Positions 465 to 28,705 of a DNA stretch of 64,000 nt are shown here, in pieces. Source of the DNA: Streptomyces oceani (GTDB lineage: Bacteria; Actinomycetota; Actinomycetes; Streptomycetales; Streptomycetaceae); NCBI RefSeq assembly GCF_001751245.1, contig NZ_LJGU01000115.1, positions 1 to 64,000 of the forward strand, in the 5' to 3' direction. Position numbers and translations under genes: made by a program. A model generated the notes under the pieces. The model had not been told where the DNA came from, did no database searches, and worked only from the letters and a program-made list of their open reading frames with translations. Positions within the stretch are counted from its first letter, which is position 1. The number at the start of each line of letters is the position of its first letter.

Positions 465-1228
465 GTGCTTGTCTGCCCGTGCGGGCTGGACGTGTCCAGT
501 CGGTCCCTGACCTTCCTCGCCGCTCGTCTGCGCGAACATCGTCGTCGGATCGGAGCCCCTGGCGCCGCCTCCCGGCCGGTCGTCAGGCCCTGCTGGTACT
601 GGCACATCTGCGTAACGGAACCACGTATGCCCAGCTCGCAGCGGGTTTCGAGGTCGGCACCAGCACGGTCCTACCGATACATCACCGAGGCCGTCGACCT
701 GCTGGTCTCACTCGCACCGACCCTCGAGGAGGCCGTCCGATCCGCGTCGAGGAAGGCTTACGTCCTGCTCAACGGGACGCTCCTGCCGATCGACCGGATC
801 GCCGCCGACCGGCCCTTCTTCTCCGGCAAGTACAAGAGACACGGCATGAAGTCCAGGTCCTGGCCGACCCCGCCGGACGCCTCCTGTGGGCCTCACCCGC
901 CGTGCCAGGAGCCATCCACGACATTCGCGCCGCACGCGAACACGGCATCCTCAACGCCCTCACCACAGCGGACATCAACCGCTGGGCGGACAAGGGTTAC
1001 CAGGGCGCCGGACCGACGGTACGCGTCCCGTATCGAGGCCGCTGGGAGAACCTGTCCGACGGCCAGCAGGCCGTGAACCGCTCGCAGGCCACGATCCGGG
1101 CCCTGGTCGAACCCGCCATCGCCACCCTCAAGACCTGGCGACTCCTGCGGAAGCTGCGATGCTCGACCACTCGGGTCACCGGCCTCGTCCAAGCCGTCCT
1201 CACCCTCCAGCTCACCTGCTCAAACTGA
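465..1228 (+). pseudogene. IS5-family DDE transposase, three frameshifts
   Basis: The protein can be pieced together from alternating frames. MLVCPCGLDVSSRSLTFLAA starts at 465. The frame then shifts to the block RRLPAGRQALLVLAHLR (HTH_Tnp_4-like). It shifts back for YRYITEAVDLLVSLAP through LLNGTLLPIDRIAADRPFF, and shifts again near 850 for VQVLADPAGRLLWASPAVPG, GAIHDIRAAREHG, WADKGYQGAG and KTWRLLRKLRCST. These are the signature blocks of the DDE_Tnp_4 transposases common in Streptomyces, and the frame ends at the TGA at 1226-1228. All catalytic-region blocks are recognisable, but no single frame spans them, so the gene is inactive. Confidence 0.85.
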
Positions 1229-1344: not shown

Positions 1345-1929
1345 TCAGGCGGACCAGCCGATGCAGGAGACGAAGGTGTAGGCGTCCCAGTCGCTTCCCA
1401 GGTCCGCGATCGCGTCTTCCCAGATGCGTTGGAGACCCTGGGCGTCCCCGGCGGCCCAGGCGTCCACGGCGGCGTTCCACGCGGTCGGGCGGATCGTCAG
1501 GCGGCGCATCCCCACGTTCCGACGACGGTTACGCCGAGGGACGTCGCTGGGATCGGCGGGATCGATCTCTACACGGGTGCCGCCACCACGGGCGAGGCGG
1601 CGTGTGAGAGCGGGAAGCACCCGCTGGCGGCGTAGCGTCCAGTAGGCGTCATCCAACTTCGCGCGGTTGGCCGCGGAAGGAGTTTGCTCGGCGGCCAGCC
1701 ACGCGTACAGGGTGCGGGCAGTGACGGTGATTCCGGCGTGTTCCATGGCGGCGTATCCGGCGGGCGAGTCGGTCAGGTACCGCAGCCGTGCCGCGATCCC
1801 CCGGGCACTGTCGGGTGGGAAGGTGATGCCGGTGACCATGCGCTCCAGACCGAGCCCGACCGCAGCGCCGCCGGGCATGCCCTCAGCGCCGAACTCCCCC
1901 AGGCGCCGCCAGCGGTAGTCCTGCGCCAT
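1345..1929 (-). CDS. terminal-protein (Tpg)-like protein of a linear replicon
   Basis: The protein has 194 residues. The sequence shows a helix-turn-helix-like stretch around residues 57-100 (GITVTARTLYAWLAAEQTPS, then a basic helix), an Arg-rich middle (PRRNRRRNVGMRRL, 131-144) and a C-terminal alpha-helical part ending in GWSA. This order, the length (Streptomyces Tpg is about 184 residues) and the position directly after a Tap-like gene suggest a divergent telomere terminal protein, which primes end-patching DNA synthesis. The start codon overlaps the upstream stop by one base (TGATG), so the two are probably translationally coupled. The stop codon lies where the neighbouring IS seems to begin, so the natural C terminus may have been cut off. 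Residue identity to known Tpg is weak. The family call is an inference from architecture and context; a plasmid DNA-binding protein is the main alternative. Confidence 0.5.
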   Translation of the reverse strand: MAQDYRWRRLGEFGAEGMPGGAAVGLGLERMVTGITFPPDSARGIAARLRYLTDSPAGYAAMEHAGITVTARTLYAWLAAEQTPSAANRAKLDDAYWTLRRQRVLPALTRRLARGGGTRVEIDPADPSDVPRRNRRRNVGMRRLTIRPTAWNAAVDAWAAGDAQGLQRIWEDAIADLGSDWDAYTFVSCIGWSA

Positions 1930-2612
1930 CAGCCACTCTCCTTGACGGTGTAGTGGAGCGGGTAGCCCTCGCTGTCGTGTTTGATCTTCATCTGCGGCAG
2001 GCCGGTGCCCTCGTCGAAGGCCTGCCGCCAGTCGCCTGCCACGTGCAGTTCATCGGTACCAAGAACGGCGACCACGGTCAGGCCGGCGTTGTGGGCCTTG
2101 AGAGCACGGCCCCACAGGTTGGTGAAGGCCTGGGAACGGATCAAGTGCATCCAGTCCGGGCGGGTGATCTCCCGGTTGTGGACGCTCTCCCCGATCATGG
2201 AGACGAACTTCGCGTACATGGCCTTCACATCAGCGATCTTGACGTCGTTACCGGCATGCAAGGCGTCATCACGGGCCTCCACGAGCGCGGCCCGGAGATA
2301 CTTCAGCAGGCCCTCCGATGAACCGGACGTCCACGACTCGTGGATCGTCGGCGCCTTCACGAGGCCATAGTTAGGCCCGGCCAGACGCAGCAGCAAGCGC
2401 AGCATCGGCTCCCCGACCCAGAGCGGGCCCGGCTCCTGTCGGGCTCCGAGCGGATTGAGAAGGTGGGCATGCCGCCAGAGCGGCGGAGCGATCAGGTAGA
2501 ACCCGACACGCTTGGTGTCGTACCTACCGGTGGTGGAGTGCTCCAACCGGCCAATCGGCAGATGCGTGGTGAACGCGCAGAGGTAGGCGGCGTTGACGTC
2601 CAGACCCGTCAC
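1929..2612 (-). CDS. telomere-associated (Tap)-like protein, polymerase-motif region only, probably N-terminally truncated
   Basis: The reading frame has 227 residues and a GTG start. Three blocks resemble the palm motifs of family B-like polymerases: LDVNAAY at 4-10 (motif A), K130 to G141 with YAKFVSMIG (motif B) and GTDELH at 185-190 (motif C). Between them lie LLNPLG (51-56), ESWT (92-95) and RPDW (151-154). This block order matches my recollection of the C-terminal part of Streptomyces Tap, which together with Tpg extends the terminal protein in vitro. Full-length Tap is about 740 residues, so most of the N terminus is absent. Just upstream, the minus-strand reading KRARLGATRVYGVL lies in another frame and is joined by a stop, which points to a frameshifted remnant. 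The gene is coupled to the Tpg-like gene that follows. Confidence 0.5.
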   Translation of the reverse strand: MTGLDVNAAYLCAFTTHLPIGRLEHSTTGRYDTKRVGFYLIAPPLWRHAHLLNPLGARQEPGPLWVGEPMLRLLLRLAGPNYGLVKAPTIHESWTSGSSEGLLKYLRAALVEARDDALHAGNDVKIADVKAMYAKFVSMIGESVHNREITRPDWMHLIRSQAFTNLWGRALKAHNAGLTVVAVLGTDELHVAGDWRQAFDEGTGLPQMKIKHDSEGYPLHYTVKESG

Positions 2613-3009
2613 CGTGATCTTTCCGTCCTAAGAACGCCGTAGACCCGGGTGGCGCCAAGACGGGCGCGCTTCCCAGATCAGATCCGAGTCACCCTGCGTG
2701 GGGCGCTACAGGATCCCGGGCAGACGAGGGTAGGCGGTGTGCTCGTATCGGGCCTGTTTCCGCGGGTGCGTGAACAGGCCCATCACGTCCAGGATCACGC
2801 GTTTCACCAACGCCTCGACCACGGCATCCTGAACACCCCACGCACGCTCCAGCGCTACCCCGACCGTCTCATCAATCCACGCCGTCAACCCACTACGAGT
2901 CCGCTCAGCACTCGACACCCCACCAGCCCCACGCGCCTCGCCCCACGCACCCTCGAACCCACAAGACGAAACGCCCGCAAACCCACCAAGGTTCAGCCTC
3001 CCCGCACCC
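2613..3009 (-). other. decayed coding stretch between the Tap-like gene and the HIT gene
   Basis: Minus-strand frames retain the fragment KRARLGATRVYGVLRTE (about 2675 to 2625), which seems to be lost upstream sequence of the Tap-like gene. A further open stretch ends at 2706 with the text FTHPRKQARYEHTAYPRLPG. Neither has a credible start codon with a ribosome-binding site. The second fragment is not recognised. No complete gene is visible here. Confidence 0.4.
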
Positions 3010-3423
3010 TCAGCTGACCATCGCCGTACGGATCCGGCAGGCCACGGCGCTCGCCTCCGCCTCGTCGGCGTAGCGGCCGCGCGGCCAGAAGAAGCCACGC
3101 AGCCCGTCCTTCCTGTTCCGGGGGACGACATGGGTATGAAAGTGCGGCACGGACTGACTAACCCGATTGTTCGACGCCACGAAAGAACCAGCCGCTGACA
3201 CCCCCCGCTCGACCGCCGCTGCGACTCGCTGCACCCGACCGAAATACGGTCCCAGCTGATCGGTGGGCAACTCTGTCAGAGTCTCAACGTGCTGTGCGGG
3301 CACGACCAAGACATGGCCGGGAAAGAGCGGCCGAGCATCAAGGAACGCCACCGCCCAAGCGTCCTCGAGGACGACATGTGCGTTGCTGTCGTGCCGCACG
3401 ATCGCGCAGAAACCGCAGTCCAC
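3010..3423 (-). CDS. HIT-family nucleotide-binding protein
   Basis: The protein has 137 residues, normal for a compact HIT hydrolase. The histidine triad is HFHTH at residues 94-98 within QSVPHFHTHVVPR. The N-terminal CGFC (residues 3-6) and the block ARPLFPGHVLVVPAQH (30-45) are typical of the family, which cleaves nucleoside phosphoramidates or dinucleoside polyphosphates in the cytosol. The start is GTG at 3423; no strong ribosome-binding site is visible, and no better start lies nearby. It stands alone, between transposon debris and a secreted protein gene. The natural substrate cannot be told from sequence. Confidence 0.9.
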   Translation of the reverse strand: MDCGFCAIVRHDSNAHVVLEDAWAVAFLDARPLFPGHVLVVPAQHVETLTELPTDQLGPYFGRVQRVAAAVERGVSAAGSFVASNNRVSQSVPHFHTHVVPRNRKDGLRGFFWPRGRYADEAEASAVACRIRTAMVS

Positions 3424-24314: not shown

Positions 24315-24995
24315 ATGAACCGCAAACGGGCGACAGACGAGGACACCACGCGGGCACTGCTGGAGTGCGCGGGACGTACCTACGCGGCGCAGGCCGGGAT
24401 CACCCTGCGGAACACGCCCGGCCCGCTGTTCCAACTGCTGGTCCTCACACACCTGCTGAGCGCACGGATCAAGGCTGACATCGCGGTGGCGGCGGCTCAC
24501 GCGCTGTTCGACGCGGGGATGCGGACGCCACAGCGGATGGCCTCCGCCACCTGGCAGCAACGGGTCGACGCGCTCGGCGTGGGCGGCTACCGGCGCTACG
24601 ACGAACGCACCTCCAGCCAGCTGGGCGACGGCGCCGAGCTGCTCGCTGAGCGCTACCACGGCGACCTGCGGCGACTGCGGAACGCCGGTACGGGCACCAG
24701 TCAGGTGCGTGACCTACTGCGGGAGTTCCCCGGGATCGGCCCCACCGGGGCGGACATATTCCTGCGGGAAGCGCAGGGCGTGTGGCCGGAGTTCGCGCCG
24801 TACATCGACCGCAAGGCCAAGGACGGCGCGAGCCGGCTCGGGCTGCCCCGGTCGGCGTCGGACCTCGCCGAGTTGGTGGACGAGGCGGACCTGCCGCGGC
24901 TGGCGGCGGGGCTGGTGCGGGTGGCCCTGGACGAGGAGGTCGGCGAGGAGGTCCGGCGGGCCGCGAGGCGGGAACCGGCTTCCGCGCGGGGCTGA
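24315..24995 (+). CDS. endonuclease III-like HhH-GPD protein without iron-sulfur cluster
   Basis: The protein has 226 residues. The helix-hairpin-helix GIGPTG (140-145) and the catalytic-type Asp 165 in APYIDRKAKD place it in the HhH-GPD base-excision superfamily. The Lys that makes Nth bifunctional is not found before the hairpin, and no four-cysteine cluster follows, so it is a monofunctional or divergent member. GGAGGAAGGAAGG precedes the ATG. Activity on damaged bases is plausible but unproven. Confidence 0.8.
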   Translation: MNRKRATDEDTTRALLECAGRTYAAQAGITLRNTPGPLFQLLVLTHLLSARIKADIAVAAAHALFDAGMRTPQRMASATWQQRVDALGVGGYRRYDERTSSQLGDGAELLAERYHGDLRRLRNAGTGTSQVRDLLREFPGIGPTGADIFLREAQGVWPEFAPYIDRKAKDGASRLGLPRSASDLAELVDEADLPRLAAGLVRVALDEEVGEEVRRAARREPASARG

Positions 24996-25105
24996 AGGCT
25001 CGTACCGGGCACGGTCGCGCGCTGGTGTCCGCCCGCGCGACCGTACGATCCGGACTGCGGTGCGCGCCGTACGGCCGCAGCGCGGCTGGTCGCCGAAGGC
25101 CGCCG

Positions 25106-26278
25106 CTAGCCCTCCTCCGGCCCCAGCAGGTCACGGGCGATCACCAGGCGCTGGATCTGGTTGGTGCCCTCGACGATCTGCAGCACCTTGGCCTCCCGCA
25201 TGTGGCGCTCGAGGGGGAAGTCGGTGGTGTAGCCGTAGCCGCCCAGCAACTGCACCGCGTCGGTGGTGACACGCATGGCGGCGTCCGTGCAGTGCAGCTT
25301 GGCCATGGCGGCCTGGCGGGCGAACGGCCGGCCGCTGTCCCGCAGTCGGGCCGCGGTGAGCAGCAGACTGCGGCCGGCCTCGATCTGGGTGGCCATGTCC
25401 GCGACCATGAAGTGCAGGCCCTGGAAGTCCGCGAGCGGGCGGCCGAACTGTCGGCGCTGGTGCAGGTAGCGCAGCGCCTCGTCCAGCGCGGCCTGGGCGA
25501 GCCCCACGGCGCAGGCGGCGATGCCGAGCCGCCCGGAGGCCAGTGCGGACAGCGCGATGGCGAAGCCCTGGCCCTCCTCCCCCACCCTGTTGTGCTCCGG
25601 CAGGCGTACGCCGTCGAAGTGGACCTGGGCGGTGGGCGAACCGCGCATGCCCATCTTGCGTTCCGGCGCGGCGAAGGTCAGCCCCGGGGCGTCCCCCGGC
25701 ACCAGGAAGGCGGTGATCCCGCGCGGGCCGGCCTCCCCGGTACGCGCCAGCACGGTGTAGAAATCGGCGATCCCGCCGTGCGTGATCCACGCCTTGGTGC
25801 CCTCGATGACCCACTCGTCGCCGTCCCTGCGTGCCTTCGTACGCAGCGACGCGGCGTCCGATCCGGAGGTCGGCTCGGACAGGCAGTACGCGCCCAGGGT
25901 CCCGCCGCCGAGCATGTCCGGCAGCCGCGCGGACCGCTGCTCCTTGCTGCCGAACTCCGCCAGGGCATGGCAGGACAGGGTGTGCACGCTGGTCCCGAGC
26001 CCGACCGTCAGGCTGGCGTGCGCCAGCTCCTCCAGGACCTGGAGGTAGACCTCGTACGGCTGGTCGCCGCCGCCGTACTCGCTCGGGTAGGGCAGACCGA
26101 GCAGCCCGGACGCGGAGAGCTGCCGGAAGGTGTCGCGGGGGAACCGGCCGGCCTCCTCGTCGGCGTCGACGGTGGGCCGTACCTCCCTCCTCGCCATCTC
26201 ACGCACCAGGTCCAGCAGGTCTCGGGCTTCCTCGGTGGGCAACTGGCGCTCCACGGGCTGGGGGCCGTACTCGGGCAT
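25106..26278 (-). CDS. acyl-CoA dehydrogenase
   Basis: The protein has 390 residues, the normal length. The FAD-binding signature AYCLSEPTSGSDAASL and the second ACAD block QLLGGYGYTTDFPLER are present, and the C-terminal catalytic loop reads LQIVEGTNQIQRLVIARDLL with the Glu base. It introduces a trans-2 double bond into acyl-CoAs and passes electrons to ETF. ATG at 26278 has AGGAGGAG just upstream. Short- or branched-chain preference cannot be decided. It is monocistronic, convergent with the glycosylase-like gene. Confidence 0.95.
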   Translation of the reverse strand: MPEYGPQPVERQLPTEEARDLLDLVREMARREVRPTVDADEEAGRFPRDTFRQLSASGLLGLPYPSEYGGGDQPYEVYLQVLEELAHASLTVGLGTSVHTLSCHALAEFGSKEQRSARLPDMLGGGTLGAYCLSEPTSGSDAASLRTKARRDGDEWVIEGTKAWITHGGIADFYTVLARTGEAGPRGITAFLVPGDAPGLTFAAPERKMGMRGSPTAQVHFDGVRLPEHNRVGEEGQGFAIALSALASGRLGIAACAVGLAQAALDEALRYLHQRRQFGRPLADFQGLHFMVADMATQIEAGRSLLLTAARLRDSGRPFARQAAMAKLHCTDAAMRVTTDAVQLLGGYGYTTDFPLERHMREAKVLQIVEGTNQIQRLVIARDLLGPEEG

Positions 26279-26530
26279 GGCGGCGCTACTCCTCCTGTCG
26301 GGGACTGCGGCGGGGCGCTGGGTGTGGCGCTTCCGCCGGGTCGTCATCGCCCCTGCCGTGATGCTGCACTCCGGGGTACGGGTGCCGGGCTGACCAGCGG
26401 CTGTGGCGCACAGGAGTATGCCCGATCGGCGGCGGCACGTCACGGCCGCCCGGACACGGGACCGCCCGCCTGCGCGACGCGCGGCCGCCGCCCCTTCCGT
26501 GAGGGGCCGGGATCGGGAAGTGTGGCCCGT

Positions 26531-28705
26531 ATGCAGTCAACTGACTTTCCGCATGTGGGAAACGGCGCGGTCTCGCTGCTCCTCGACGCGCGGGGGCCGG
26601 GTCTCCCCTCGGTGCTGCACTGGGGGGCGCCGCTCTCCGCCTCCGAGCTGGACCAGGCTCCGGAGCTCGCGAGAGCGCTGGACCGCCCGGTGCCGTCCGG
26701 CGGTCCGGACACGGCGGTGACCGTCGGGACGCTGCCGGAGCACGCGGCGGGCTTCCCGGGCCGGCCGGGACTGCGGGGTCACCGGCAGGACGGTGCCGGC
26801 TGGGCGCCGGTCTTCACACGTACCGAGTTGCGGCAGGAGAGCGCCGGATCCCTGGTGGTGACCGCTCGGGACGTCGAGGCCGGACTGACCCTGGTCTCCG
26901 AGACGGAGCTGGATGACAGCGGACTGCTGCGGCTGCGGCACCGGCTGCGCAACGACGGCCCCGGTCCGTACACCGTGGACGCGCTGGAGGGCACTCTGCC
27001 CCTGCCGGCGCAGGCGACGGAACTGCTGGACTTCACCGGGCGGCACTGCCGCGAGCGGCAGCCGCAGCGGCGCCGGCTGCACGACGGCACGTGGCTGCGG
27101 GAGAGCCGCCGGGGCAAGCCGGGGCTGGACGCGACCCTCGGGCTGCTGGCCGGCACCACCGACTTCGGCTTCCGGCACGGCGAGGTGTGGGCGCTGCACG
27201 TCGCCTGGAGCGGCAACCATGTCGCGTACACGCAGCGCCTGCCCGAGGGCCATACCCTGCTCGGCGGCGGCGAGTTGCTGCTGCCCGGCGAGATCACGCT
27301 GGACCCGGGCGCCGAGTACGCCACTCCGTGGCTCTGCGCCGCCTACAGCGAGCGCGGCATCGACGGCGTCAGTGCCGCCTTCCACGGCTGGCTGCGTGCG
27401 CTGCACCGCCAGGGCGGTCGGCTGGCCGGTCCGGTGACGCTCAACACCTGGGAGGCGGTCTACTTCGACCACGACCTGGACCGGCTGCGCACGCTGGCGG
27501 ACACGGCCGCGCGGTGTGGCGTGGAACGTTTCGTGCTGGACGACGGCTGGTTCCGTGGACGCCGCAACGACCGGGCGGGCCTGGGTGACTGGTACGTGGA
27601 CGAGGACGTGTGGCCGGACGGGCTGGGTCCGCTGATCGACCATGTGCGGGGCCTCGGCATGGAGTTCGGGCTGTGGGTGGAGCCCGAGATGATCAGTCCC
27701 GACTCCGAGCTGTGCCGTGCCCACCCCGAGTGGCTGCTGGCGCCCGAGCACCGCGCGGCGCCGCCGGCCCGGCACCAGCAGGTGCTGGACGTCGCCCGGC
27801 CCGAGGCGTACGCGTATCTGCTGGAGCGGCTGGACACGCTGCTGACCCGGTATCCGATCGGCGCGCTGAAGTGGGACCACAACCGCGACCTGGTCGCCGC
27901 CCAGCACGCCGGACGGGCCGGGGTACACGCGCAGACGCGGGCGGTCTACGAGCTGCTGGACACGCTGCGGCAGCGGCACCCGCGGGTCAGTGTGGAGAGC
28001 TGTGCCTCCGGCGGCGGCCGAGTGGACCTGGGGATTCTGGAGCGTACCGACCGGGTGTGGGCGAGCGACTGCAACGACGCCCTGGAACGGCAGGCCATCC
28101 AGCGCTGGACCGGCGTGTTCGTGCCACCGGAGATGCTGGGGGCACACGTCGGCCCGACCCGCGCGCACACCACCGGGCGACGGCATGGTCTGGGGTTCCG
28201 CGCGGCCACCGCGCTGTTCGGGCACATGGGTGCCGAGTGGGACATCGAGCGGGGCGCGAGCGAGCCGCAACGGGAGCGGCTGGCGGCGGCGTTCGCCCTG
28301 TACAAGCGGCATCGGGAGCTGCTGCACGGCGGTGCGGTGGTGCACGCGGACCACCCGGACCCGGCCGCCTGGGTGCACGGGGTGGTGGCCCGGGACGGCG
28401 GCAGCGCGCTGTTCTGCTATGCCCAACTGGCCATGTCCGACCACGCGGTGCCGCCACGGGTCCGGCTGCCCGGGCTGGACCCGGCGGGGCGCTACCAGGT
28501 GCGGCTCGAGCATCCGGCGGGCGCCCCGCGCAAGCGGGGCCGTGAGGTGCCCGAGTGGTGGGCGGCGGGCGGCACGGTGCTGTCCGGGCGGCTGCTCGAA
28601 CGGGTCGGAGTACAGGCGCCGGTGACCGACCCGGAGGACGCCTGGCTGCTGAGTCTGGAGCGGCTGGACGGGCGGGACGAGTCCTTTGGCGAGGTGCCGG
28701 ACTGA
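26531..28705 (+). CDS. alpha-galactosidase, glycoside hydrolase family 36
   Basis: The protein has 724 residues with no signal peptide, so it is intracellular. The N-terminal beta-sandwich is followed by the barrel: LDDGWFRGRRNDRAGLGDWY, then K447-W448-D449 (nucleophile, in KWDHNRD), and ESCASGGGRVDLGIL with D513 (acid/base, in WASDCNDA). It should hydrolyse alpha-1,6-galactosides such as melibiose or raffinose after uptake. No dedicated transporter is adjacent. The start was chosen as the first ATG of the conserved domain; GGGAAG lies 11 bases upstream, rather distant. Confidence 0.93.
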   Translation: MQSTDFPHVGNGAVSLLLDARGPGLPSVLHWGAPLSASELDQAPELARALDRPVPSGGPDTAVTVGTLPEHAAGFPGRPGLRGHRQDGAGWAPVFTRTELRQESAGSLVVTARDVEAGLTLVSETELDDSGLLRLRHRLRNDGPGPYTVDALEGTLPLPAQATELLDFTGRHCRERQPQRRRLHDGTWLRESRRGKPGLDATLGLLAGTTDFGFRHGEVWALHVAWSGNHVAYTQRLPEGHTLLGGGELLLPGEITLDPGAEYATPWLCAAYSERGIDGVSAAFHGWLRALHRQGGRLAGPVTLNTWEAVYFDHDLDRLRTLADTAARCGVERFVLDDGWFRGRRNDRAGLGDWYVDEDVWPDGLGPLIDHVRGLGMEFGLWVEPEMISPDSELCRAHPEWLLAPEHRAAPPARHQQVLDVARPEAYAYLLERLDTLLTRYPIGALKWDHNRDLVAAQHAGRAGVHAQTRAVYELLDTLRQRHPRVSVESCASGGGRVDLGILERTDRVWASDCNDALERQAIQRWTGVFVPPEMLGAHVGPTRAHTTGRRHGLGFRAATALFGHMGAEWDIERGASEPQRERLAAAFALYKRHRELLHGGAVVHADHPDPAAWVHGVVARDGGSALFCYAQLAMSDHAVPPRVRLPGLDPAGRYQVRLEHPAGAPRKRGREVPEWWAAGGTVLSGRLLERVGVQAPVTDPEDAWLLSLERLDGRDESFGEVPD

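Follow-up and report, generated by a model that had tools for sequence, protein, structure and literature searches.

The window, a stretch of 64,000 nt at the start of contig C161 of the Streptomyces oceani draft genome (6.3 Mb in 166 contigs), carries two coupled genes on its minus strand. The first (1929..2612, GTG start) encodes 227 residues that include the blocks LDVNAAY, KAMY and GTDEL, and the second (1345..1929, ATG start) encodes a protein of 194 residues. The two open reading frames share one base. A sequence-only reading of this DNA had singled out both genes as a diverged Tap/Tpg-type telomere pair, and we found the genes, and the blocks LDVNAAY, K-x2-Y-x7-G and GTDEL that it had listed for the first of them, as described. 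We refer to the two families as TapL and TpgL, names coined in this analysis; the TapL part is predicted to be the C-terminal, phi29-like palm/fingers domain of a longer protein, and TpgL is a Tpg-like terminal-protein candidate. Downstream of TpgL lies a DDE transposase ORF (DDE_Tnp_4; 479..1228, plus strand), which may be degraded, since a second long frame overlaps it. On the other side, just past the TapL break, there is a HIT-domain gene (3010..3423, minus strand), and an RlmA-like methyltransferase and a sigma factor are encoded on the same side. Neither the TapL fragment nor TpgL matched any Pfam or NCBIfam model at E ≤ 10, and each is present in one copy in its own genome at E ≤ 0.001. 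Elsewhere in the window, a 1307-aa ORF of glycoside hydrolase family 36 (melibiase; 24782..28705) has no Pfam match over its first ≈ 600 residues.

The TapL reading frame of the window begins at about residue 290 of the shorter (477–523 aa) plasmid relatives. In the translated region, homology extends further upstream in the same frame to about position 2912, across TAG codons at 2628–2630 and 2706–2708, and the interval 2613..2912 (minus strand) appears to be the decayed upstream part of the gene. Intact relatives have an N-terminal helix-turn-helix (HTH) region, and this is absent from the window copy beyond ≈ 2912. Judged by its reading frame, the window TapL copy looks like a dead remnant and the TpgL frame looks intact. 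The earlier description of the locus as a remnant is supported; the truncation of TapL and its two in-frame stops are additions to that description.

Curated models of the classic telomere proteins gave partial or no matches. Two full-length TapL proteins scored 65.9 and 80 bits against the Tap model NF047542 (cut-off 600), in both cases over the N-terminal part only; a fusion protein encoded by record L014 gave no match, and the window fragment gave none at E ≤ 10. The Tpg model NF047541 (cut-off 90 bits) did not match TpgL from the window or from L011, L014 or L003. By these scores neither TapL nor TpgL belongs to its curated counterpart, Tap or Tpg. Comparison of profiles told more. The catalytic region of TapL aligned with the C-terminus of 22 classic Taps at an hhalign probability of 96.9 (reversed control, 0.4), and TpgL showed a weaker link to 10 classic Tpgs (72.8), which bears out the suggestion of a diverged Tap/Tpg-type pair. 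With a Tap-homologous C-terminal domain and a tpg-type gene directly downstream, TapL fits a Tap-like superfamily. As in Tap/Tpg, the two genes form an operon with the polymerase-type gene first and a partner of ≈ 190 aa second; intact TapL further resembles Tap in its N-terminal HTH, its homologous C-terminal domain and its frequent location near replicon ends. TapL differs from Tap in being shorter (477–523 aa in seven of eight relatives) or fused to other sequence.

A tblastn search of 72,556 plasmid records found TapL relatives in 140 and TpgL relatives in 145, almost all of them from Streptomyces. These numbers exclude chance as the source of the window ORFs. Seven full-length plasmid TapL proteins have 477–523 residues and the eighth, the L014 fusion, has 1073; the intact relatives of L011 and L003 carry an N-terminal helix-turn-helix (HTH_3). 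A scan of genomes confirmed 278 TapL relatives, and the best 80 of the 278 loci were taken for analysis; the closest of these 80 was that of Streptomyces sp. XM4193 (75%), and S. rimosus NRRL WC-3904 was also among them. The loci were fetched by their TapL match, so that TapL is present in all 80 by construction; a TpgL ORF overlapped TapL or lay just after it in 67 of them. Full-length relatives are widespread across Streptomyces; some sit on linear plasmids, among them the small L011 and L012, and others at the ends of chromosomes.

Alignment of the window TapL with the 80 loci revealed residues identical in all 81 sequences: L4, D5, N7, A9, Y10 and L11 (window TapL numbering), K130, M132, Y133 and G141, and G185-T186-D187-E188-L189. 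The L014 fusion, a plasmid relative outside this alignment, has no equivalent of G141. In TpgL, T118 (within GTRxE) was invariant in 76 of 76 aligned sequences. The deoxynucleotidylation site of Tpg is reported to be T114 (PMC3572947); it has no clear counterpart in TpgL, where the alignment is weak. The S128 position, considered as its equivalent, is S or T in 69 of the 76 sequences and was dropped because it is not invariant.

Some longer frames also end in a TapL palm. The L014 fusion (L014:1877-5098, 1073 aa) is one, and L250–L253 measure 1057, 1021, 2017 and 1318 aa from stop to stop; all are located on linear plasmids or at chromosome ends. The L014 protein matched no Pfam or NCBIfam model, and PHROGs held no significant match to it, to an S. 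rimosus TapL or to TpgL of the window. Six of 150 genomes contain more distant relatives (L243–L248), frames of 745–872 aa ending in a TapL-like palm, with a TpgL-like gene adjoining in five of the six. Similar plasmid genes are annotated as DnaB-like helicase C-terminal domain proteins, and these genes possibly represent another telomere pair.

To obtain a view of the fold, we used AlphaFold2 to model the C-terminal 335 residues of an S. rimosus TapL, which shares 65% identity with the window fragment where the two align (mean pLDDT of the model 87.6). The best match among solved structures was phi29 DNA polymerase (Foldseek E 2e-7, probability 1.00), the type of polymerase against which the sequence-only reading had proposed a structure search. 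In VIA-align the two aligned over 276 residues with Z 16.1 and rmsd 5.5; the other family-B polymerases listed gave Z of about 8–10. Among viral models, the top matches were mostly DNA polymerases. The TapL catalytic domain is therefore predicted to be a family-B palm fold closest to that of phi29 polymerase. The blocks of the sequence-only reading, which had called them palm-like, fit motifs A, B and C. These motifs read LDVNAAYL, KAMYAKFVSTLG and GTDELHVAG in TapL versus DVNSLYP, KLMLNSLYG and YCDTDSIHLTG in phi29 polymerase, and the DVNxxY, K-x2-Y and TD blocks occur in identical order. TapL differs from phi29 polymerase in motif C, which is GTDE instead of DTDS, the first Asp being replaced and only the second retained in 81 of 81 sequences, and in its separate HTH domain. 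The relationship did not emerge at the level of sequence: hhalign of TapL against phi29 polymerase gave a probability of 0.4, and searches of PDB sequences returned no polymerase either with the TapL family profile or with the window fragment, for which a designed protein came first (E 4e-5), none of the aligned stretches passing by itself. The TpgL model (mean pLDDT 84.6) had no PDB fold match at E ≤ 0.001.

Sg2247-type telomeres occur in S. rimosus, S. albidoflavus J1074 and several plasmids, with GTA, GAA and GGA loops (PMC8743542). That paper (2021) states that the telomere proteins of these ends are not known, and PMC3937824 (2014) assumed an unidentified telomere pair in J1074. The open-access literature that we searched names no proteins for Sg2247-type ends. 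The ends of L011 and L012, both of which carry the pair, consist of hairpin arrays with TAC, TTC and TCC loops. On the 3′ strand these are GTA, GAA and GGA, that is, the loops reported for Sg2247-type telomeres. The same pattern, in which a TAC-loop palindrome comes after a GACGC linker, marks the left end of pSHJG1, the start of S. rimosus pPZG101 and eight of the contig ends scored below. Inspection also showed it in an S. albidoflavus plasmid, whose end lies 1.3 kb from TapL. PMC8743542 places the one Sg2247 end of pSHJG1 on the right; we take the left end, since the archetypal match lies at the right in CP003276.

Telomere ends were scored with a structural rule. A first regular expression had proved too narrow, matching two of 120 ends, both of one chromosome, and was replaced by the rule. 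The fetched loci extended to 26 contig ends, of which eight conformed to the rule (L020, L027, L033, L041, L043, L066, L069 and L090) and 18 did not. Four records that carry the pair also have ends that failed the rule: L013 (S. mobaraensis), L014, NC_015951 on the left and NZ_CP109454 on the right, although L014 does have hairpins. In S. cattleyicolor, NC_017585 has no Sg2247-type end and NC_016113 has one, at its left.

Plasmid records were also searched with telomere sequences. A subtype 1 query, the end of linear plasmid NZ_CP108608, matched 34 records, in each case at most ≈ 50 bases from the record end; pSGZL, an Sg2247 plasmid named in PMC8743542, was among them. A subtype 2 query from a complete chromosome matched 58 records, with pSCAT, likewise named as Sg2247 in that paper, at the top. 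Both pSGZL and pSCAT encode TapL. Among the matches listed (113 records, with hits of ≈ 27% identity and short hits left uncounted), the pair was present in at least 53 of 74 listed Sg2247-telomere records versus at least one of 60 listed archetypal records (Fisher p 8e-19), where subtype 2 contributed 40 of its 58 records and the archetypal set 60 of 138. When terminal matches only were considered, leaving out six internal matches of the subtype 2 set and three of the archetypal set, the figures among the matches listed were at least 47 of 68 and 0 of 57 (p 5e-18). The pair thus goes with Sg2247-type and not with archetypal ends, in contrast to Tap/Tpg and in agreement with the earlier suggestion of a distinct telomere class. 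A TapL relative of ≈ 27% identity, not counted as TapL, sits on the archetypal-ended NZ_CP109206. Among the matches listed, 21 of the 74 Sg2247-telomere records were without the pair; pSCAT, searched whole, has TapL. None was found on pSHJG1, also a paper-named Sg2247 plasmid, on S. xanthii CP061282 or on S. rimosus pPZG101; these three would depend on a pair supplied in trans.

The subtype of telomere corresponded to the clade of TapL. Among the matches listed, the 23 subtype 1 records with a TapL all had one of clade 1, and the 23 subtype 2 records with a TapL (19 for terminal matches only) all had one from outside that clade. The subtype 1 set comprised 23 of the 29 clade-1 TapL records among the matches listed.

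In most Streptomyces genomes, TapL and classic Tap appear to substitute for one another. Among 149 genomes, not including that of the window, 19 had both, 79 had Tap only, 34 had TapL only and 17 had neither (odds ratio 0.12, p 2e-8). In this count Tap had to score above its cut-off, and six genomes with sub-cut-off Tap only were taken as Tap-negative; eight genomes whose TapL matches were weak (E 1e-21 to 1e-24; distant relatives in six and short fragments in two) were scored as TapL-negative. Of 12 TapL genomes picked for their end-located or named loci, and hence not a random sample, two had classic Tap above cut-off and one had a split copy; the S. rimosus genome, one of the 12, had none above cut-off. 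No classic Tap above cut-off was found on any of eight plasmid records, pSHJG1 having fragments.

The structural rule was satisfied at 12 of 120 ends (60 contigs of 58 genomes chosen, not at random, from those with few contigs) and in none of the interior or shuffled controls. All seven rule-positive genomes have TapL (seven of 20 TapL-positive versus 0 of 38 genomes, p 2.6e-4); the rule was shaped after the ends had been viewed, and this p-value is less clean than those of the Tap/TapL and plasmid-record counts. Thirteen of the 20 TapL-positive genomes had no end conforming to the rule, and true ends may be absent from many assemblies. In six cases TapL lies equally far from both replicon ends, at 1.2 kb (G077), 1.9 kb (G037, contig 2), 3.2 kb (G141), 3.7 kb (G061), 11.4 kb (G121) and 14.3 kb (G080). 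Other kinds of ends were also seen. Those of G064 (L141/L201), a genome with a partial TapL and no classic Tap, carry hairpin arrays with TGGC and TGAC tetraloops and perhaps belong to another telomere class. L109, L162 and L217, at ends of G043, G153 and G119, have hairpins with CAAG loops (CTTG when read on the opposite strand), a kind that PMC7205883 describes for type I Tap-Tpg strains. 

A GtpB/GtpA telomere pair of Streptomyces griseus 13350 was reportedly described by Suzuki et al. in 2008. If TapL/TpgL were this pair, the family would already be known, and this is the main doubt about its novelty. Like Tac/Tpc of SCP1, it is a non-archetypal Streptomyces pair that we considered by published description only. 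Two points favour identity: GtpA shares only 18% identity with Tpg, and GGA loops also occur in the telomere class of GtpB/GtpA (PMC7205883). The linear plasmid pRLB1-9.2 bears on the question. It carries TapL/TpgL and matches subtype 2 at its end, and its telomere has been described as having GGA loops (PMC7205883). PMC7205883 used GtpB/GtpA as queries (cut-off 50% identity, 98% coverage) and gives no Tap or Tpg homologue for the linear plasmid of RLB1-9; this is suggestive only, since two names, pRLB1-9.1 and pRLB1-9.2, are used there for that plasmid. In addition, PMC8743542 treats Sg13350 and Sg2247 as distinct classes of telomere. On these published descriptions, we consider identity of the two pairs unlikely.

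In the window strain, end patching is presumably done by a classic pair. Contig C88 encodes a Tap as an open frame of 796 aa that scores above the family cut-off and is 52–65% identical to the reference Tap over three stretches, and a Tpg (53% identity) follows directly. This Tap (L016, G000:C88) contains a direct internal duplication of ≈ 90 aa, which may be an assembly artefact; another frame across the junction reads X. Neither an Sg2247-type telomere query (best E 0.3) nor an archetypal one (best E 0.5) had a significant match in the draft genome. Neither the contig start (z −1.4) nor the DNA just downstream of TpgL (z +0.6) folded better than expected by chance, and a third strand, used as a control, gave −1.8; three Sg2247-type and one archetypal telomere strands reached z −7.0 to −9.4. 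The sequence-only reading had proposed an integrated linear plasmid as the source of the pair. The lack of telomere-like palindromes at these two sites, and the occurrence of full-length relatives on chromosome ends in addition to linear plasmids, leave that proposal unsupported; the source of the pair may be either a plasmid or an older chromosome end.

Could the window copy still work? A short TapL might be made from the GTG at 2612, or TpgL might work alone with a Tap encoded elsewhere, an arrangement that PMC3572947 reports for SLP2 and its lone tpg. The unbroken TpgL frame and the palm motifs kept in the TapL fragment would suit this, and in a draft assembly both stops could be sequencing errors. 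Against it stand the two stops themselves and the loss of the HTH part, the single copy of each gene in the genome and the want of a significant Sg2247-type telomere match there, and we regard a functional window copy as improbable. Records often annotate both genes as transcriptional regulators or HTH proteins, and TapL does have an HTH, but a plasmid maintenance or regulatory module merely travelling with these replicons is very improbable given the polymerase fold and conserved active-site blocks, the location of TapL at both chromosome ends, its complementarity to Tap across genomes and the match of telomere subtype to TapL clade.

The window holds the decayed remnant of a TapL/TpgL operon, and its intact counterparts are very probably the end-patching pair of Sg2247-type ends. 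The more general proposition, that TapL/TpgL is the missing end-patching system of Sg2247 telomeres at large, with a phi29-type polymerase, replacing Tap/Tpg widely and with clades that co-evolve with telomere subtypes, we consider likely. Homology, fold and linkage make a Tap/Tpg-type reaction at these ends the most likely role. For the archetypal system, PMC4513846 reports that Tap and Tpg by themselves perform protein-primed synthesis in vitro. Intact TapL would combine an N-terminal HTH with a C-terminal protein-primed DNA-polymerase domain of the phi29 type, and the small TpgL would serve as primer. The single-stranded 3′ end left by replication would fold into hairpins. TapL would recognize this Sg2247-type end, prime from a hydroxyl of TpgL and copy the last nucleotides, and TpgL would remain covalently bound to the 5′ end. 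The data show the operon, the predicted fold, the conserved active-site blocks, the link with Sg2247-type telomeres and the complementarity to classic Tap; we infer the catalysis, the priming, the TpgL residue used and the recognition of DNA.

With two candidate genes, one of them for a protein of predicted polymerase fold, the completion of Sg2247 ends becomes testable. If the assignment is true, TapL/TpgL would provide a marker for this telomere class in draft genomes. The predicted fold of TapL further suggests that the telomere proteins of Streptomyces belong with the protein-primed polymerases of the phi29 type.
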